The notes under the pieces: generated by a model
Told to the model about the DNA's origin: nothing
Seen by the model: the letters and a program-made list of their open reading frames with translations, nothing else
Databases searched by the model: none
In this document: in pieces, positions 4,197-62,715 of the stretch
Position numbering within the stretch: the first letter of the stretch is position 1
Layout: every line of letters starts with the position of its first letter
NCBI GenBank assembly: GCA_024330215.1
Contig: JANDLU010000007.1
Coordinates: 1 to 64,000 of the forward strand
Reading direction: 5' to 3'
From: Candidatus Gaiellasilicea maunaloa
GTDB lineage: Bacteria > Actinomycetota > Thermoleophilia > Gaiellales > Gaiellaceae
Length of the DNA stretch: 64,000 nt
Program-made: the position numbers and the translations under genes

Positions 4197-5438
4197 CTAG
4201 CCGGTCGCCGCCTCGGCTGCGGGACGAGGTCCGTCGTTGCGCACGCCGCGCACGGATGGGAGAAGAACGACCGTCAGGCTGATGGCGATGTTCAGCGCGG
4301 CGGCGACGGCGAGCGTCTCGGCAACTCCGGCCAACGCAGCGAGCGGACCGATGAGCGCGTACCCGATCGGGTTGAGCGCGACGGAACCGAGCCAGTCGAA
4401 CGAGCTGATCCGCGAGATCGCGTGCTCCGGGACGTTCCGCTGGAGCGCGGTGTACCAAAGCGTCTCACCGACGGAGAAGCCCACCCCGGCCATGAATCCG
4501 ACGGCGGCGATCAGCACGAGCGGCAGGGGCACGGCCAGCGTGGCGAGGAGCACGCCGGCGGACACGACGAGAAGCGCCGAGGCGACCAGCGGGCGGTCGA
4601 ACCTCACGCGCAGGGCGACCAGGCCACCGGCTACGGATCCTGCAGCCTGGAGCGCGAGGATCGTTCCCCACGCCCCCGCCCCACCGAGCTCCTCTTTCGC
4701 AACAAGCGGCCCGAGAACGAGATAGGCCGGGAAGAAGGTCAACTGGAAGAATCCGAAGGATGCGACCATCGCCACGACCCAGGACCGGCTGACGAACTCG
4801 CTCCAGCCGTCACGGAGATCAGCGAGGACGGACACCGAGGCCAGCCGGGCCGCCGGCGCGAGCCGCATCGACGCGACGAGCAGAGCCGACACGAGGAAGG
4901 TGCCCGAGTCGAGCGCCAGCGCCCAGGCCGGGCTCGCGGCGGCGACGATCACGGCACCAAGCGCCGGTGCGGCAACGGAGAGCGAGCTGCGGAAGAGCTG
5001 AAGGAACGCGTTCGCCTCCTGCAGCCGCTCGTCGCTGACCGCCTCGCGGACGAGACCGAGAGTCGCCGGCCGGGAGAAGGCGACCGAGACACCGAACACC
5101 GTCTGGAGAAGCGCCACGCTCCAGACGCTCGCCGCCCCGGAGAAGAAGAGTGCGGCCGTGGCCGCCTGGGCGGCGCACTTGACGAGGTCGCTGCCGACGA
5201 GGATATAGCGCCGCGACAGGCGGTCGGCGTAGACCCCGCCGAGCAGCAGGAACACGACGACCGGGATCTCTCGTGCGAGCAGCACGATTCCCAGGTCGGT
5301 CGCGCCGCCGAGGTCGAGGACGGCGAACGCGAGGGCGACGACCGCCATCCCCGAGCCGAGCGTCGAGATGGAGACGGCTGCCAGATACCGCGCGAAACTC
5401 GGCTCGCGAAGCGCGTCCAGTGAGTTCGGCATCCGCAC
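4197..5438 (-). CDS. MFS transporter, EntS/macrolide-efflux type
   Basis: The 413-residue protein has about 12 hydrophobic helices. An N-terminal PSFARYLAAVSISTLGSGM and a loop LLGGVYADRLSRRYILVGSD match the efflux branch of the major facilitator superfamily that includes EntS and MFS_3. The substrate is unknown. The start GTG 5438 lies 7 bases after a TAGGCT hexamer (5446-5451), suggesting its own leaderless promoter. It faces away from the SPFH gene and ends 47 bases before glpX. Confidence 0.82.
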   Translation of the reverse strand: MRMPNSLDALREPSFARYLAAVSISTLGSGMAVVALAFAVLDLGGATDLGIVLLAREIPVVVFLLLGGVYADRLSRRYILVGSDLVKCAAQAATAALFFSGAASVWSVALLQTVFGVSVAFSRPATLGLVREAVSDERLQEANAFLQLFRSSLSVAAPALGAVIVAAASPAWALALDSGTFLVSALLVASMRLAPAARLASVSVLADLRDGWSEFVSRSWVVAMVASFGFFQLTFFPAYLVLGPLVAKEELGGAGAWGTILALQAAGSVAGGLVALRVRFDRPLVASALLVVSAGVLLATLAVPLPLVLIAAVGFMAGVGFSVGETLWYTALQRNVPEHAISRISSFDWLGSVALNPIGYALIGPLAALAGVAETLAVAAALNIAISLTVVLLPSVRGVRNDGPRPAAEAATG

Positions 5439-24052: not shown

Positions 24053-25902
24053 GCGCCGCCCGATCGATGGAGCTGGGCGTAGATCGCACGGCCGGTCTTC
24101 GCGGGCACGCCCGGAACGCCCTCCAGCTCCTCCTGACTCGCTGCCACCACGTTCTCGGTCGAGCCGAAGTGGTGGAGCAGCGCGCGGCGGCGCGCCGGGC
24201 CGACACCCTCGAGCGTGTCGAAGAGCGACTCACGCGCCTTCGCCGAACGGCGCCGGCGATGGAAGTCGAGGGCGAAGCGGTGCGCCTCGTCGCGGATCCG
24301 TTGCAGCAGCTGCAGACCCGGCCCGTGCGGATCCAGAACGATTGGGTCTGGGGATCCCGGCACGAACACCTCCTCGACCCGCTTGGCCAGCGCGATCACG
24401 GCGACACGCGGCAGGTCGTAGCTCTGCATCGCGGCGAGCGCGGCCGAGAGCTGCCCTTTGCCGCCGTCGATCACGACGAGGTTCGGCGCCGTCGCGAAGC
24501 CCTCGTCGTACTCCTCGTCGGTCAGGTGACCGAGCCGGGCGAAGCGCCGCGAGATCACCTCGGCCATCGCCGCGAAGTCGTCCTGCCCTTCCAGCCCTCG
24601 TACCGCGAACTTGCGGTAGTGCGCCTTCTTCGCGACCGCGTCCTGGAAGACGACCATCGAGCCGACGATCTGCTGGCCCTGGATGTTCGAGATGTCGTAA
24701 CACTCGATCCGCAGCGGCAGGCTCTCGAGGTTCAGCGCCTCCCGGAGCTCCTCCAGCGCTTCCACGCGTCGCAACCGCTTCTGCTCCGCCTGCACCGCCT
24801 CCGAGTCGAGCGCGAGCCGCGCGTTCTGAGCGGCGAGCTCGGCCAGCCGGGCCTTCTCGCCACGTTCGGGCACTCGTACCTCGACCCGTGAGCCGCGACG
24901 CTCGCCGAGCCACTGCTCGAGCGCCTCGACGTCGCCGGTCTCGCGCGGTACCACGAGCTGCGGCGGGATGGAGGGGGCGTTGCCGTAGTACTCGGTGCAG
25001 AACGCCTCGAGGATCGTCGTCACGTCCTGCCCCTCGACGTTCTCGAGATGGAAGCCGTGCCGGTCGATCATCTTGCCGCCGCGGAGCGGAAAGACCTGGA
25101 CCGCGGCACGCTCGCCCTCGGCCGCGATCCCGATCACGTCGATCGAGCCGGTCTCCCGCCGGTCCGCCCCCTGCCGCTCGGCGAGGTTCTGGATCGCGAA
25201 GAGCCGGTTCCGGTAGCGGGCGGCGTCCTCGAAGCGCTCGTCGGCGGCCGCTTCCCGCATCCGCTCCTCGAGCGCACGCACGATCGGCCTCGTGTCGCCC
25301 GAGAGGAACTCGATCACCTCGTCGATCAGCTCCCCGTAGAGCTCCTTCGAGATGTAGCCCACGCAGGGCGCGTGGCAGCGCTCGATGTGGTAGTCGAGGC
25401 ACGGGATTCCCGAGTGCCGGCCGGGCTTCGGGCCCTCGCAGGGCCGGAACTGGAAGACGCGGTTCAGCACGTCCAGCGTCTCGCGCACCTTCTTCGCGTT
25501 CGCGTACGGCCCGAAGTAGACGACCCCGCGCCGATGCCGCTCGCGCGTGAACATGACGCGCGGATACTCGTCCTCGACGGTGACGGCGATATAGGGGAAC
25601 GACTTGTCGTCGCGCAGCCGCACGTTGAACGCCGGCCGGTACCGCTTGACCAGGTTCTGCTCGAGGTGGAGCGCCTCGACCTCGGTGCGGGTGACGATCA
25701 CCTCGAAGTCGTCGATCCGGGAGACGAGCCGCGGGATCGACTGGCGGGTGTCGCCGCGGCCGGACTGAAAGTAGGAGCGGACGCGGGGCCGGAGCGACTT
25801 CGCCTTTCCGACGTAGAGCACGGCTCCCTTCGTGTCGCGGAAGAGGTAGACGCCCGGCTTTGCGGGCAGTCCGTTCAGCTTGTCGCGGACATCCGCCATC
25901 AC
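24049..25902 (-). CDS. uvrC: UvrABC system protein C
   Basis: The 617-residue protein has the GIY-YIG nuclease (PGVYLFRDTKGAVLYVGKAK), a Cys-rich PC..HSGIPCLDYHIERCHAPC region, the UVR motif (about 200-235), the RNase H-like endonuclease (IECYDISNIQG, VIDGGKGQL), and a C-terminal helix-hairpin-helix pair (LEGVGPARRRALLHHFGS). It makes both incisions in nucleotide excision repair. GTG 25902 lies 6 bases after TACCCT (25909-25914). Confidence 0.95.
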   Translation of the reverse strand: MMADVRDKLNGLPAKPGVYLFRDTKGAVLYVGKAKSLRPRVRSYFQSGRGDTRQSIPRLVSRIDDFEVIVTRTEVEALHLEQNLVKRYRPAFNVRLRDDKSFPYIAVTVEDEYPRVMFTRERHRRGVVYFGPYANAKKVRETLDVLNRVFQFRPCEGPKPGRHSGIPCLDYHIERCHAPCVGYISKELYGELIDEVIEFLSGDTRPIVRALEERMREAAADERFEDAARYRNRLFAIQNLAERQGADRRETGSIDVIGIAAEGERAAVQVFPLRGGKMIDRHGFHLENVEGQDVTTILEAFCTEYYGNAPSIPPQLVVPRETGDVEALEQWLGERRGSRVEVRVPERGEKARLAELAAQNARLALDSEAVQAEQKRLRRVEALEELREALNLESLPLRIECYDISNIQGQQIVGSMVVFQDAVAKKAHYRKFAVRGLEGQDDFAAMAEVISRRFARLGHLTDEEYDEGFATAPNLVVIDGGKGQLSAALAAMQSYDLPRVAVIALAKRVEEVFVPGSPDPIVLDPHGPGLQLLQRIRDEAHRFALDFHRRRRSAKARESLFDTLEGVGPARRRALLHHFGSTENVVAASQEELEGVPGVPAKTGRAIYAQLHRSGGA

Positions 25903-25914
25903 CGATCCAGGGTA

Positions 25915-25938
25915 GATGGAGGCTTACACCACCATCAC
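25915..25938. repeat. Palindromic repeat, copy 2, in the uvrC/glycosidase intergenic
   Basis: It aligns to the copy at 15488-15511 with 20 of 24 bases identical; GATGGAGG and CATCAC are kept at the ends, and the differences lie in symmetrical middle positions. It lies between the divergent uvrC -10 box (25909-25914) and the plus-strand -10 box TACCGT (25949-25954), so it is placed to affect both promoters. Confidence 0.6.
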
Positions 25939-25961
25939 AGTGCAGCGCTACCGTGTCGCGG

Positions 25962-27383
25962 ATGAGGTGGGGGCTGCTTTCGGTGCTGCTCGCGCTCGCG
26001 GTCGCTCCGACCGCGCAGGCGGGCGGACCGACTCTGACGCTCGGGGCGGCCGAGGATGTCGTCCGCAGCTCGAGTCTCGTCGAGGCGAAGGCGCAGATGA
26101 CCCTGCTCCAGCTAGCCGGTTTCCGCGCGGTTCGCGTCACCTCGATCTGGAAGCCGGGCGAGCTCTCGCCGGGAGCGGCCGAGTCCAGGATCCTCGATAA
26201 CGTCGCGGCGGCTGCCGAGCTCTCCGGCGTCCGGGTCTACGCCTCCGTCTTCCACGCCGGCTCGCGCACGACGCCGCTCGCGCCCGAGGATCGCGCCCAG
26301 TTCGCCTCGTATGCGGCCGGGCTCGCCCGCGCCTATCCGAGCTTCCGCGACGTGATCGTCGGGAATGAGCCGAATCTCAATCGCTTCTGGCTGCCGCAGT
26401 ACGCCGCGGACGGGTCCGGGGCCTCTGCACCGGCCTACCTGTCGCTCCTCGCCGAGACCTACGACGCGCTGAAGGCCGTCTCGCCCGAGGTCCGGGTGAT
26501 CGGCGGCGCGCTGGCGCCTCGCGGGGTCGACAGGCCCGGTACCGGCCGCGACACGATCTCGCCCACGCGCTTCATCCGCGAGCTGGGCGCCGCATATCGC
26601 GCGAGCGGGAGGACGCTCCCGGTGATGGACGTCTTTGCCTTCCACCCCTACGCCGACAACTCGAGCCGCGCGCCCGACCTCCCGCCGGGCGATCCCGACC
26701 ATCTCGGACTCATCGATTACCCCAAGCTCGTTGCCCTGCTCGGCGAGGCATTCGACGGGACTGCGCAGGCCGGCTCGACGCTGCCGATCCTCTACGACGA
26801 GTTCGGCGTCGAGGCGACGATCCCGGCGGAGAAGGCATCGCTCTACTCCGGCGCGGAGCCCGCGACGACGAAGCCGGTGACCGAGGCAACCCAGGCCGTG
26901 TACTACCGGCGGGCGCTGCAGCTCGCGTTCTGCCAGCCGAACGTGACCGGGATCCTCCTCTTCCACTCCCACGACGAGACCGCGCTCTCTGCCTGGCAGT
27001 CGGGCCTCTACTACGCCGACGGCACGCCGAAGTCGAGCCTCGCGCCAGTCCGCGACGCGCTCGCGGCAACGCGCGGTGGCTCGATCGTCCGCTGCGACGG
27101 ACTCACGCTCACCGTCAAGCCGAGGACGGCCTTTTCGGCGCGGACGCTCGGGATCGCGCTCCGTTGCGATCTCGACTGCATCTACCGGGCGCGGCTCGTC
27201 AAGCTCCCGACAGGTTCGACCACAGCCGCGACGAGCGGCCGTGCGAAGGCGGAAGCCCGAGTCACGATCTCGCTGCGCCGGAAGCTCCGCCCTGGTCTCT
27301 ACCGGCTTGCGGTCAGCGTCACGCATCCGGTCAACGGGGGCGAGCCGGTTCTGCGCGAAAGCGCACCCTTCCGCGTTCGCTGA
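25962..27383 (+). CDS. Secreted glycoside-hydrolase-fold protein (clan A type)
   Basis: The 473-residue protein has a signal peptide (MRWGLLSVLLALAVAPTAQA) and a TIM-barrel glycosidase pattern. VIVGNEPNLNRFWLPQ holds the Asn-Glu acid/base (Glu 136), VFAFHPYADN ends strand 6, and LPILYDEFGVEA holds the second Glu (280). A beta-rich tail (about 370-473) follows. The substrate is unknown. ATG 25962 is 7 bases after TACCGT. The next gene, a paralogue, starts in its stop codon (TGATG). Confidence 0.82.
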   Translation: MRWGLLSVLLALAVAPTAQAGGPTLTLGAAEDVVRSSSLVEAKAQMTLLQLAGFRAVRVTSIWKPGELSPGAAESRILDNVAAAAELSGVRVYASVFHAGSRTTPLAPEDRAQFASYAAGLARAYPSFRDVIVGNEPNLNRFWLPQYAADGSGASAPAYLSLLAETYDALKAVSPEVRVIGGALAPRGVDRPGTGRDTISPTRFIRELGAAYRASGRTLPVMDVFAFHPYADNSSRAPDLPPGDPDHLGLIDYPKLVALLGEAFDGTAQAGSTLPILYDEFGVEATIPAEKASLYSGAEPATTKPVTEATQAVYYRRALQLAFCQPNVTGILLFHSHDETALSAWQSGLYYADGTPKSSLAPVRDALAATRGGSIVRCDGLTLTVKPRTAFSARTLGIALRCDLDCIYRARLVKLPTGSTTAATSGRAKAEARVTISLRRKLRPGLYRLAVSVTHPVNGGEPVLRESAPFRVR

Positions 27384-28633
27384 TGCGCCCCGCGCTGGCG
27401 GCGTCACTATTCCTCTGCTCAGTCGCTCTCGCCGGTTGCAACGGCGAGGACGGTAGCGCCGGCGAGGGCGCGCGATCTAGGGCAGTTACGGCAACGGTGT
27501 CAGACACGGTGCCAGAGACGGTTCCAGAGACGGTGCCAGACACGGTGCCAGACACGGTTCCAGAGACGGTGCCAGACACCGTGACAGAGACGGCGGCCTC
27601 CGAGGCGGCCTCCGAAGCGTTCGTCGTCGGCGCCGTCGACGATGCGGCTCGGCACCGCGGGCCGGTGCTCGGCCAACTCGCCGCCGCGGGGTTCGGCGCC
27701 CTTGGGATCACGAGCTACTGGGAGCCCGGCCTGTCCGCCCCCTCACCGGAGGAGCTCGCCGTTCTCCGCGACGTCGCCGGCCGCGCCGCCGAGCGCGACC
27801 TGCGCATCTTCCTCGCCGTCTTCCATCGAGGCTCCGCGACGACGCCGCTGACGGCCGTCGAGCGCGCGGCCTTCTCCTCCTACGTCGCCGCGATCGCGCG
27901 GGACGTCCCCGAGATCGAGGACGTGATCGTCGGCAACGAGCCGAACCTGAACCGTTTCTGGCTCCCCCAGTTCGGCCCGGACGGCGAGAACCTCGCGGCC
28001 GTCTTCTACCTCGCGCTGCTGGCGGACGTCTACGACGCAGCGAAGGCCGCCGCACCCAAGACGCGGATCTGGGGCGGCGCGCTCGCGCCGCGCGGCGTCG
28101 ACAAGCCGAACACGGACCGCGACACGCATTCGCCGACGACGTTCATCCGCGATCTCGGAACGGAGCTGCGCCGAACCGGGCGCACGCGACCGGTGCTCGA
28201 CGGCTTCGCCTTTCACCCGTATCCGGCCGCGTCGAACATCCCGCCCGACCGGCCGCATCCCGGTTCCCGGACACTCGGGCTCGCCGACCACGAGCGGCTG
28301 CGGCAGCTCCTACGCGCGGCGTTCGACCGCGACGTCGCGATCCTCTACAGCGAGTTCGGCGTCGAGACCGCGGTTCCACCGGAGAAGGCGGCGCTCTACG
28401 AGGGCGACGAACCTGGCAGCCCGGTTGACGAGGCGTCGCAGGCCGACTTCTACCGGCGCGCGCTCGAGCTCGCCGCCTGCCAGGAGGGCGTCGTCGGAAT
28501 GCTCCTCTTCCACTCGCACGACGAGCCGTTCCTGACCGGTTTCCAATCGGGCCTCTACTACGTCGACGGCACCCCGAAGACGAGCCTCGCTCCCGTGCGC
28601 GAGGCGATCCTGGATGCGCGCAACGGTTGCTAG
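27383..28633 (+). CDS. Lipoprotein glycoside-hydrolase-fold paralogue with minisatellite linker
   Basis: The 416-residue protein has a lipoprotein signal ending LAGC (lipobox). A linker of V-P-E-T and V-P-D-T repeats (about 39-70) follows, then the same catalytic domain as the upstream gene: VIVGNEPNLNRFWLPQFG and AILYSEFGVET keep both Glu residues. It lacks the upstream protein's beta tail. The enzyme would be held on the outer face of the membrane by the repeat linker. The pair is a tandem duplication that has diverged in anchoring. Confidence 0.82.
   Translation: MRPALAASLFLCSVALAGCNGEDGSAGEGARSRAVTATVSDTVPETVPETVPDTVPDTVPETVPDTVTETAASEAASEAFVVGAVDDAARHRGPVLGQLAAAGFGALGITSYWEPGLSAPSPEELAVLRDVAGRAAERDLRIFLAVFHRGSATTPLTAVERAAFSSYVAAIARDVPEIEDVIVGNEPNLNRFWLPQFGPDGENLAAVFYLALLADVYDAAKAAAPKTRIWGGALAPRGVDKPNTDRDTHSPTTFIRDLGTELRRTGRTRPVLDGFAFHPYPAASNIPPDRPHPGSRTLGLADHERLRQLLRAAFDRDVAILYSEFGVETAVPPEKAALYEGDEPGSPVDEASQADFYRRALELAACQEGVVGMLLFHSHDEPFLTGFQSGLYYVDGTPKTSLAPVREAILDARNGC
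27497..27592 (+). repeat. 12-base minisatellite, 8 units, translated as VPET/VPDT
   Basis: Eight 12-base units of the type GTGCCAGAGACG or GTGCCAGACACG run through the linker of the lipoprotein. The same DNA unit occurs at 62152-62237 in an unrelated gene. Several units create short palindromes such as GTGTCAGACAC. Confidence 0.85.
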
Positions 28634-59686: not shown

Positions 59687-62245
59687 TCATCGGGACACCA
59701 CCTTCACGTTGGCGCGAGTCGCTTCTGGGTCTTGCAGCATCGACCAGACGCGGTGCGAGGGATTGCAGCTGTCGTAGACGATCGGCTTGCCGGCCGGTTT
59801 GAGGGCATCCTGGATCGCGGAGCAGATGCAGTGGATCCCGCCGCCGCCGCCCTCGCCCATCCCCTTCGTCCCCAGCGGCGTGAAGGGCGACGGCGACTCG
59901 ATCGCGGCGGTCTTCAGCGTCGGCATGTCGAGGGCGTGCGGCACGTGATAGTCGTAGAAGTTGGACGTCAGCAGCTGGCCGTCCTCGTCGTAGACGAAGT
60001 CCTCGTGCAGTGCCGCGCCGATCGCGTGCGCAGTGGCGCCGTGCACCTGCCCCTCCACGATCTGCGGGTGGATGCGCACGCCGCAGTCGTCCACGGCGGC
60101 GTAGTCGACGATCTCGACGACGCCGGTCTCCTCGTCGACCTCGACCACGCAGGCGTGGATCTGGGTAGCGTAGGTCAGCGTCAGCTTGCCCATCTTCTTC
60201 TCGAGATCGACGTTGCCGAAGTACGGCCGGTAGACGAAGCGGTGGTTCAGCGTCGGATTGAAGTCGGGCGGCAGGAAGGCGTTGTTCGCGTTCACGATCG
60301 CGCCGAGCGCCATGAACGGCAGCGCCGCCTCGTCCGGCCCGTCCTTGATCCGCGCGAAGCCGTCGGCGAGCTCGATCGCCTCCTCCGGCGCCTGCAACAC
60401 GGCCGCCGCGAGCTGGATCATCTCGGCCCGCAGCAGATCCGCTGCACCCTTGACCGCGCCGAGACCGGTGACCGCGAACTGGCTCGCGTACGTCCCCGAG
60501 AAGCCCGCGTGCGAGTTGAAGAACGTGTCATGCCCCGGCCGCACGTGCACCTGCTCGGGTGAGCAGCCGATGATGTCGCCGACGACCTGCGACGCGGTCG
60601 TCTCGTGCCCCTGTCCTTGCGGCACCGTGCCCAGCGTCACCACGACCTCGCCGAAGATGTCGAGCTTCACGGTCGCCGCCTCGTTGTTCCCGGAGAACTG
60701 GAGCTCGGGGTTCAAGAGCTGCGACTGGCCGAAGTTGTTCGTGCCGGAGTCGAGCGTCGAGCCGATCCCGACGCCGAGGAGCTTCCCGCGAGCGGCCGCC
60801 TCCTCGCGCCGCGCCTCGATTCCCTCGTAGCCCACGAGCTCGAGCGCCAGGTCGAGGCAGCGTGCGTAGTCGCCGGAGTCGTAGACGCAGCCGTTCGGCG
60901 TCTCGTACGGCATCTGCTCGGTCTTGACATAGTTCAGCTTGCGTACCGCCACCGGATCGAGCTCGAGCTCCGACGCGACGATGTCGATGATCCGCTCGGT
61001 CAGCCAGAGATGCTGCATCCGCGAGTAGCCGCGGTTCGGCGAGACCGGCGACTTGTTCGTCGTCACCTGGGTGAAGTCGACGCGGATGTTCCGCCACGCG
61101 TAGCAACCGGGGGTCACCTGCGCCCAGATGATGCAGCCGAGCGGCTCGTAGCGCGGGAAGGCACCGCAGTCGTCGAGCGCCTTGACATTGAAGCCGAGCA
61201 TCGTTCCATCGGACTTGACCGCGACCTCGACGTCGTGGAACCAGCGCTCGTTGCCGTGCGCGTTCGCCGTGTGCTGGTCGGTGCGCCATTCCGTCCACTG
61301 GATCGGTCGGCCGAGCTTGCGCGCCAGCAGGCAGAGCGCGACGTAGGACGGGTGCAGGCAGATCTTGTTCCCGAAGGCACCGCCGATGTCGTGGGTCACG
61401 AAGCGGAGCTTGTCGAGCGAGGTCCGCAGCGCGGGCGCCATCCAGATCGCGCCGATCCCGGGCATCTGGTGATTGCAGTAGAGCGTCCACTGGCCGGTGC
61501 CGCGCTCATACTCGACGAGGGCACCAGCGCACTCGAGCGGCGTCGAGCTGAAGCGGTGGAAGTGCAGCTCGTCGACCTTGATGATGTGATCCGCCTCGGC
61601 CTTCGCGCCCTCCCAGTCGCCCCAGTCGAAGACCCCGCTCCAGACGACGTTCGAGCCCGCCTCCTCATGCATGACTGTCTCGTTCTTGACAGCCTCGCGC
61701 GCGTCGACGAGCACGTCGAGCGGCTCGTACTCGACCTCGACCAACTCAGCGGCGTCGCGCGCGAGCTCGCGAGTAGCGGCCGCGACCGCGGCGACCGGCT
61801 CGCCCATGAAGCGCGTCGTGCCGACGGCCAGCGCGTAGTCCTTGATGTTCGCTCCCGGCGGAGTCGACATCTCGAAGAACGGATCGGTGTGGATCGCGAC
61901 CTCGTCGCCGGTGAGCGTCCCGTAGACGCCCTCGAGCGCCAGCGCAGCCGAGACGTCGATCGAGACGATCTTCGCGTGTCCGTACGGCGAGCGGACGAAG
62001 TGGACGTAGCCGGTGCCGTGGCGGCGGATGTCGTCGAAGAAGACGCCCTGACCCTGGACGAGCCGGCCGTCCTCCTTACGCGGGATCGAGGTGCCGATCG
62101 AGCCCTTCTGCAGCTCCGTCGTCTCTGTCGCGACGGCCGTCGTCGAGGCTTCGTGTCTGACTCGGTCTCTGGCACCGTCTCTGGCACGGTGTCTGACACC
62201 GTCTCTGGCACCGTCTCTGGCACCGTCTCTGGCACCGGAGCTCAC
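59687..62245 (-). CDS. Molybdenum hydroxylase large subunit (xanthine dehydrogenase/CoxL family)
   Basis: The 852-residue protein has GTSIPRKEDGRLVQGQGVFF, DIGGAFGNKICLHPS, SPNRGYSRMQH at the active loop (near residue 403, neither AYRCSFR nor AYRGAGR), and GTKGMGEGGGGG near the end. It binds Mo-pterin cytosine dinucleotide and hydroxylates an unknown substrate. GTG 62245 overlaps the small-subunit stop (GTGA). The first 33 residues come from a minisatellite read as GARD repeats. Confidence 0.88.
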   Translation of the reverse strand: MSSGARDGARDGARDGVRHRARDGARDRVRHEASTTAVATETTELQKGSIGTSIPRKEDGRLVQGQGVFFDDIRRHGTGYVHFVRSPYGHAKIVSIDVSAALALEGVYGTLTGDEVAIHTDPFFEMSTPPGANIKDYALAVGTTRFMGEPVAAVAAATRELARDAAELVEVEYEPLDVLVDAREAVKNETVMHEEAGSNVVWSGVFDWGDWEGAKAEADHIIKVDELHFHRFSSTPLECAGALVEYERGTGQWTLYCNHQMPGIGAIWMAPALRTSLDKLRFVTHDIGGAFGNKICLHPSYVALCLLARKLGRPIQWTEWRTDQHTANAHGNERWFHDVEVAVKSDGTMLGFNVKALDDCGAFPRYEPLGCIIWAQVTPGCYAWRNIRVDFTQVTTNKSPVSPNRGYSRMQHLWLTERIIDIVASELELDPVAVRKLNYVKTEQMPYETPNGCVYDSGDYARCLDLALELVGYEGIEARREEAAARGKLLGVGIGSTLDSGTNNFGQSQLLNPELQFSGNNEAATVKLDIFGEVVVTLGTVPQGQGHETTASQVVGDIIGCSPEQVHVRPGHDTFFNSHAGFSGTYASQFAVTGLGAVKGAADLLRAEMIQLAAAVLQAPEEAIELADGFARIKDGPDEAALPFMALGAIVNANNAFLPPDFNPTLNHRFVYRPYFGNVDLEKKMGKLTLTYATQIHACVVEVDEETGVVEIVDYAAVDDCGVRIHPQIVEGQVHGATAHAIGAALHEDFVYDEDGQLLTSNFYDYHVPHALDMPTLKTAAIESPSPFTPLGTKGMGEGGGGGIHCICSAIQDALKPAGKPIVYDSCNPSHRVWSMLQDPEATRANVKVVSR
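62152..62237 (-). repeat. 12-base minisatellite, about 7 units, translated as GARD
   Basis: On the coding strand, units GGTGCCAGAGAC and GGTGTCAGACAC repeat about seven times at the 5' end of the Mo-subunit gene. They are the same DNA units as at 27497-27592 but are read in another frame, giving GARDGARDGARD and RVRH variants. Confidence 0.85.
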
Positions 62246-62715
62246 GCGTTCACCGCCACGATCGCCTCGACGATGTTCTGGTAGCCGGTACAGCGGCAGA
62301 TATTGCCCTGGATCGCCGTCCGCGCCTCGTCCTCGCTCGGCCGCGGGTTCGCCTCGAGCAGGGCGGTCGCGCTCATCAGCATCCCGGGAGTGCAATAGCC
62401 GCACTGGAGCGCGTGATGGGAGGAGAACGCCTGCTGGAGCGGGTTCAGCCCGTCGTCGTTGGCGAGGTCCTCCACCGTCCGGAGTTTCGCGCCGTCGGCC
62501 TGCACGGCGAGGAGCATGCAGCTCTTCACCGCCTGCCCGTCGAGTTGGATCGTGCAGGCACCGCAGTTCCCGGTGTCACAGCCGATGTGCGTTCCGGTCA
62601 GCTCCACGTCGTCGCGGATGAAGTGAACGAGCAGGCGGCGAGCGTCGACCTCGCGCTCGTAGACCTCGCCGTTGATCTCGACCGAGATCGACGCGCTCGT
62701 GGAGGGCTCCGCCAC
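62242..62715 (-). CDS. 2Fe-2S subunit of molybdenum hydroxylase (CoxS-like)
   Basis: The 157-residue protein keeps both iron-sulfur domains: GCDTGNCGACTIQLDG with KSC for the plant-type cluster, and QCGYCTPGMLMSA with GNICRCTGYQNIV for the second. It passes electrons from the Mo site to the FAD subunit. It contrasts with the damaged coxS at 33057. It lies 6 bases after the FAD-subunit gene. Confidence 0.93.
   Translation of the reverse strand: MAEPSTSASISVEINGEVYEREVDARRLLVHFIRDDVELTGTHIGCDTGNCGACTIQLDGQAVKSCMLLAVQADGAKLRTVEDLANDDGLNPLQQAFSSHHALQCGYCTPGMLMSATALLEANPRPSEDEARTAIQGNICRCTGYQNIVEAIVAVNA

Follow-up and report, generated by a model that had tools for sequence, protein, structure and literature searches.

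Dispersed 12-bp REP-like arrays in Candidatus Gaiellasilicea maunaloa and a congener: probable dependence on a RAYT-type transposase and apparent concerted change

REP families are usually described as scattered palindromes that occur as singlets, pairs or clusters, and the units of VNTRs are normally locus-specific. The palindrome described here forms a minisatellite able to sit in phase inside reading frames. We found it in the window, a stretch of 64,000 nucleotides from Candidatus Gaiellasilicea maunaloa (assembly GCA_024330215.1, contig JANDLU010000007.1, positions 1 to 64,000). The closest known systems are TIRtrons and REPINs, from which this family is set apart by its array form, the missing GTAG tag, a short RAYT and apparent concerted change at fixed sites. 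RAYT transposases are HUH enzymes that act on single strands, and cutting and rejoining of the repeats cognate to them has been reported (PMC6006769). TIRtrons, or TIRYTs (Di Nocera et al. 2013, PMC3733652), fall mostly within TnpA-REP subclass 2.1 (PMC6006769). Their points in common with the present system are a Y1 transposase gene that has short inverted repeats beside it, at times self-complementary and without a GTAG tag, and repeats able to form moderately abundant dispersed families in dimers or clusters; the palindromes GGGGTCAG and GGGGACAG, seen in relatives from the family, agree with the TIR consensus GGGGWSAS. In contrast, our repeat is of the GGTGTC type and forms 12-bp head-to-tail arrays, and in its RAYT, of 166 aa, Pfam detects no C-terminal DnaA-like/HTH domain such as subclass 2.1 has. 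With the RAYT-REP and REPIN systems of Pseudomonas and E. coli (PMC2817692, PMC3116915, PMC8049555) it shares a RAYT at a fixed place together with a dispersed palindrome family and, in the sister lineages G074 and G076, doublets 15-18 bp apart. However, the 5' GTAG/GTGG tetranucleotide tag is absent from the consensus GTGYCAGASACG, the palindrome is shorter, the 12-mers lie in tandem and head to tail instead of as an inverted REP pair around a short spacer, and the family sequence differs between congeners at orthologous sites. Intragenic REPs and the Rickettsia conorii RPE (listed in PMC3733652) are likewise palindromic repeats found in frame in many unrelated proteins and tolerated in linkers or termini, but here it is the 12-bp period of the tandem unit that keeps the frame, and only a minority of arrays are intragenic. 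Coding minisatellites and VNTRs can also have a 12-bp tandem unit that keeps the frame, but here one unit is common to about 18 loci. A literature search for the palindrome sequences returned no relevant paper, and nothing close was found on concerted evolution of REPIN families or on dispersed bacterial minisatellites.

TRF over the window identified a period-12 array at 27494-27593 (8.3 copies) and another at 62152-62237 (about 6-7 copies), with a unit common to these two arrays only and present in no third array of the window. The first, on the plus strand, consists of eight units, GTGTCAGACACG, GTGCCAGAGACG, GTTCCAGAGACG, GTGCCAGACACG twice, GTTCCAGAGACG, GTGCCAGACACC and GTGACAGAGACG, and includes the perfect 11-bp palindrome GTGTCAGACAC, a RAYT-type core, at 27497-27507. 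It lies in a lipoprotein gene (27383-28633, plus strand; lipobox LAGC), where it forms the linker from the lipobox to the main domain and is translated as TVSDTVPETVPETVPDT... (V-P-E/D-T). The second has seven units in the minus-strand reading (GTGCCAGAGACG three times, GTGTCAGACACC, GTGCCAGAGACG, GTGCCAGAGACC and GAGTCAGACACG), with a perfect 13-bp palindrome, GGTGTCTGACACC, at 62188-62200. It belongs to the large subunit of a molybdenum hydroxylase (59687-62245, minus strand; Pfam MoCoBD_1/2 and Ald_Xan_dh_C), whose GTG start is overlapped by the stop codon (GTGA) of the [2Fe-2S] small subunit (62242-62715, minus strand; Pfam Fer2_2). The seven units sit a few codons past this start and are translated as GARDGARDGARDGVRHRARD... 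(G-A-R-D). Both arrays are co-oriented with their host gene, the unit of the second being on the minus strand like the gene itself, and a unit length divisible by 3 lets them lie within genes without shifting the frame. Translation thus bears out an earlier note, made from the window alone, in that one 12-base repeat occurs in two unrelated genes and is read in two frames as V-P-E/D-T and G-A-R-D; what that note called a G-A-R-D tail is, however, an N-terminal extension of the large subunit. The lipoprotein gene is the downstream member of two tandem paralogues, 54% identical, that occupy 25860-28633, and the pair is also found in the congener G048.

We read the hydroxylase region in 14 relatives, where the small and the large subunit abut or overlap, the array and any G-A-R-D extension are absent, and the large subunit starts close to its conserved part. 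Lipoprotein homologues of other genera pass directly from signal peptide to domain, and the orthologue in G048 (69% complete, the sole congener compared) is 80% identical and has an array-encoded linker spelling T-V-A-D / D-A-E-S. On these comparisons the linker is not an old protein feature. It could be argued that the linker was chosen as a T/V/acid-rich spacer and that the likeness of the DNA is secondary, since the G048 linker retains its T-V-x-D/E character over a different DNA. We consider this extremely unlikely and reject selection on the protein as the main cause, as the identical DNA unit is also read in another frame and lies mostly in intergenic DNA, other genera lack the linker in their homologues, and G048 too uses its unit genome-wide. 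The picture that the earlier note set against its own view, a linker conserved as protein across distant relatives with different DNA, is therefore not what we see, as the linker is not kept beyond the genus. The two congeners do have its site in common, but with DNA that differs because the array family has changed as a whole.

The repeat extends far beyond these two genes. A 21-mer taken from the array has 95 near-matches in the 3.85-Mb genome compared with 2 for a reversed control pattern, a frequency far beyond chance. Reading out the loci gave about 21 arrays or array ends, or about 18 distinct arrays once contig ends matching the two sides of one site were merged (C29/C57, the start of C69 with the end of C121, and probably C24/C193); these counts come from pattern searches of the genome. 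In this assembly (G000), an array lies at or close to the end of many contigs (C24, C26, C29, C57, C69, C121, C169 and C193); the repeat thus breaks up the assembly, and the number of arrays may be underestimated. According to a simple composition-based gene call, most arrays are located at gene boundaries, and the intragenic ones are a minority. The family unit GTGYCAGASACG contains the palindrome GTGTCAGACAC, and the consensus over 120 units is GTG[CT]CAGA[GC]ACG. The GTGTCAGACAC version of the unit is a perfect 11-bp palindrome, while the majority of units, both in this genome (GTGCCAGAGAC) and in G048, are not palindromic. Arrays are 36-132 bp long with flanks that are unrelated among loci, they differ in copy number and have unit variants intermixed along them, and the 20-40 bp beside them is often diverged; no target-site signature was found at the arrays. 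A strict search of 103 family genomes retrieved this unit from its own genome only, but a species-private repeat was ruled out, as G048 carries arrays of another unit. An array scan of viral contigs gave no match, leaving a phage origin without support.

G048 has about ten arrays, built from its own unit G[TA][CT]GCAGA[GC]ACG, and this congener is where the behavior of the family can be followed. At least six of the arrays face an empty site in this close relative (L050/L200, L059/L201, L062/L202, L064/L203, L064/L207 and C121-C69/L204), as in mobile elements, and these empty orthologous sites argue that arrays arrive as insertions. One G048 array (L196) faces an array-free site in our genome. 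Eight arrays share their site with G048, including the lipoprotein array (L192 in G048) and the one linked to the RAYT gene, and the flanks at shared sites mostly align with 78-90% identity. Together with the roughly 18 arrays, mostly at gene boundaries, and the missing linker in other genera, the empty sites uphold the spread at the DNA level that the earlier note had proposed; the search of the whole genome that it called for did return further arrays.

The arrays at shared sites are not alike in sequence. Position 4 of the unit is Y (C/T) in 119 of 120 units of our genome and R (G/A) in 57 of 57 units of G048, and identity between the two genomes is 68.6% (0.686) for orthologous arrays and 68.1% (0.681) for non-orthologous ones. 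Array units are, by this comparison, genome-specific and not locus-specific. Because they differ by genome, and because arrays at orthologous sites resemble each other no more than arrays at other sites do, we conclude that the array family evolves in concert at the level of the DNA. Local slippage as the sole process was discarded, as it would have left orthologous arrays more alike than the others. Identity between loci is 0.87 in our genome and 0.72 in G048, and the greater uniformity of the former fits more recent activity than in G048. The lack of a locus-specific signal at the shared sites (0.686 versus 0.681) could also be expected if the two species had independently acquired arrays, each of a different type, at sites preferred in both and not shared by descent. 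This would require arrays to have landed eight times at closely matching positions although the sites show no target sequence in common, and six or more further sites are filled in one genome only, so we find such hot-spot insertion unlikely.

The earlier note saw no transposase, which holds for the contig of the window, where no Y1 gene was found; elsewhere, the genome codes for four Y1_Tnp genes. One of these, on contig C57 at 4683-5180, is of RAYT type and is flanked by a member of the dispersed repeat, as in RAYT-REP systems: an array lies at C57:5284-5331, about 100 bp upstream, and an array is found at the syntenic place beside the RAYT of G048. No array was found downstream of the C57 RAYT or adjoining the other three Y1_Tnp genes. 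The protein has intact HuH (THVH) and Y---NP motifs and scores 34.9 bits with Pfam Y1_Tnp (cut-off 23), with no other Pfam domain and hence no C-terminal HTH/DnaA-like domain detected by Pfam; the match to NCBIfam REP_Tyr_transpos (E=1.8e-20, 73.3 bits) is just below the curated cut-off of 80. Just before HuH, 8 of the 28 RAYTs scored, including those of C57, G048 and L105, have a T in place of N. Between our genome and G048 the RAYT has 52% aa identity and a dN of 0.42, compared with 80-97% and 0.02-0.15 for most neighboring genes, and its dS is 1.14 versus 0.2-0.6. This fast divergence, as far as the sequences go, fits co-evolution with the repeat but also relaxed constraint. Gene replacement may account for the high dS, although the two RAYTs are sister sequences and the gene has a weak codon bias; both cluster with the RAYTs of G074 and G076 (97/94 support). 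Dyad-symmetric units at gene boundaries that change in concert also resemble a co-evolving protein-site pair, and the arrays might be binding sites for a host DNA-binding protein, a regulator or chromosome organizer, that took on a different specificity in one lineage. However, the analysis turned up no candidate for such a regulator, and the fast-diverging gene next to an array is the RAYT itself, which makes this explanation very improbable.

The link between RAYT genes and palindromes is seen in the whole family. We compared 30 RAYT loci, the one on C57 and 29 others taken from relatives in the family. A count of palindromes belonging to the classes GGTGTCNGACACC, GGGGTCNGACCCC, GGGGACNGTCCCC and GGTGCCNGGCACC, or closely similar to them, gave 35 at a distance of up to 350 bp from a RAYT and 0 in the remaining 63 kb. 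Such palindromes flank the RAYT in 21 of the 30 loci and lie on both sides of the gene in 7, while the C57 RAYT has its GGTGTC-type array upstream only. The 13-bp palindrome at 62188-62200 of the window, GGTGTCTGACACC, is the same as those flanking the RAYT genes in G027, G030, G074 and G076. Repeated GGTGTCWGACACC palindromes adjoin the RAYT in G074 and G076, and these two genomes also carry dispersed singlets and doublets away from it, with 11 and 6 copies in samples of 279 and 202 kb, respectively, several of them in doublets 15-18 bp apart. We infer that the 12-bp array is most likely a condensed version of these doublets and tandems. Tandem palindrome arrays are present beside other RAYTs of the family at L114:1966-2073, L119:1308-1380 and L123:1988-2051, with periods of 40, 36 and 17 bp, so tandem packing of RAYT palindromes recurs with varying spacing. 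A scan of 84,980 species genomes, which may omit that of the window, for three degenerate units in a row identified one other genome, the Burkholderiales MAG SJ17. It has 197 GTGTCWGACAC sites, the loci read being 12-bp arrays, and a single RAYT with arrays of this same palindrome on both sides that is identical to the C57 RAYT at 54 of 164 aligned residues. The similar arrays of this unrelated MAG suggest that the 12-bp array state recurs.

Both window arrays belong to one dispersed REP-like family, which probably depends on the RAYT-type Y1/HUH transposase of C57. The unit would measure 12 bp because copies of the 13-bp palindrome GGTGTCAGACACC follow one another head to tail and have their outer base in common. 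The RAYT would recognize this unit on single-stranded DNA and either insert new arrays or replace the content of existing ones, slippage would then alter the local copy number, and the VPET and GARD peptides would be tolerated by-products. Spread by the RAYT and replacement of units within arrays would jointly explain the empty sites, the concerted change and the linkage to the RAYT. The earlier note's hint at REP-like sequences and RAYTs holds for this linkage and for the palindrome class flanking RAYTs in the family, but not for strong single-strand hairpins in the window. Compared with shuffled sequences, folding was not significant for the array at 27490-27598 (z about -0.3) or for that at 62150-62240 on its two strands (z -1.8 and -0.4), so a hairpin formed by each array as the recognized form gained no support there. 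The lipoprotein array of G048 folds worse than its shuffles (z +1.6), the RAYT-linked array and L059 fold weakly (z -2.2), and the SJ17 array folds strongly (z -9.4).

Concerted evolution could also proceed with no transposase, through gene conversion, replication slippage and template switching, the RAYT-linked array being just one member of the family. Array copy number does vary and unit variants are mixed along arrays, and local REPIN amplification by the replication machinery has been proposed (PMC8049555). However, at a length of 36-132 bp and with flanks that are unrelated, arrays are ill suited to conversion between loci, conversion leaves the arrays at congener-empty sites unexplained, and RAYT genes throughout the family have palindromes of this class clustered beside them; we therefore judge this route improbable. 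The RAYT and the whole array family may have switched recognition sequence together; in one lineage or in both, a new 12-mer would have been written in place over the units at ancestral sites of the genus, while the RAYT diverged unusually fast. This is a tentative proposal, and we lean slightly against it. If true, it would be a bacterial parallel to the turnover of proteins and their sites, as with PRDM9 and hot spots. Family-wide turnover of sequence at fixed sites, as seen here between two congeners, gives direct access to the questions of whether RAYTs are active in maintaining their repeats and how RAYT specificity and repeat sequence co-evolve.

Last, two further motifs occur beside arrays. 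A cluster of AGGGACAGTCCCT-type palindromes, a class also seen near other RAYT genes of the family, occupies L064:137-600 next to the array of contig C169; a second palindrome family seems to exist in the genome. In both congeners, a GCAACAATTC motif is located some tens of bp beyond the RAYT-linked array (L057:5249-5258 and L189:1066-1075); it also lies outside one further G048 array (L196:4333-4342), and it may mark a mobile unit longer than the array alone.
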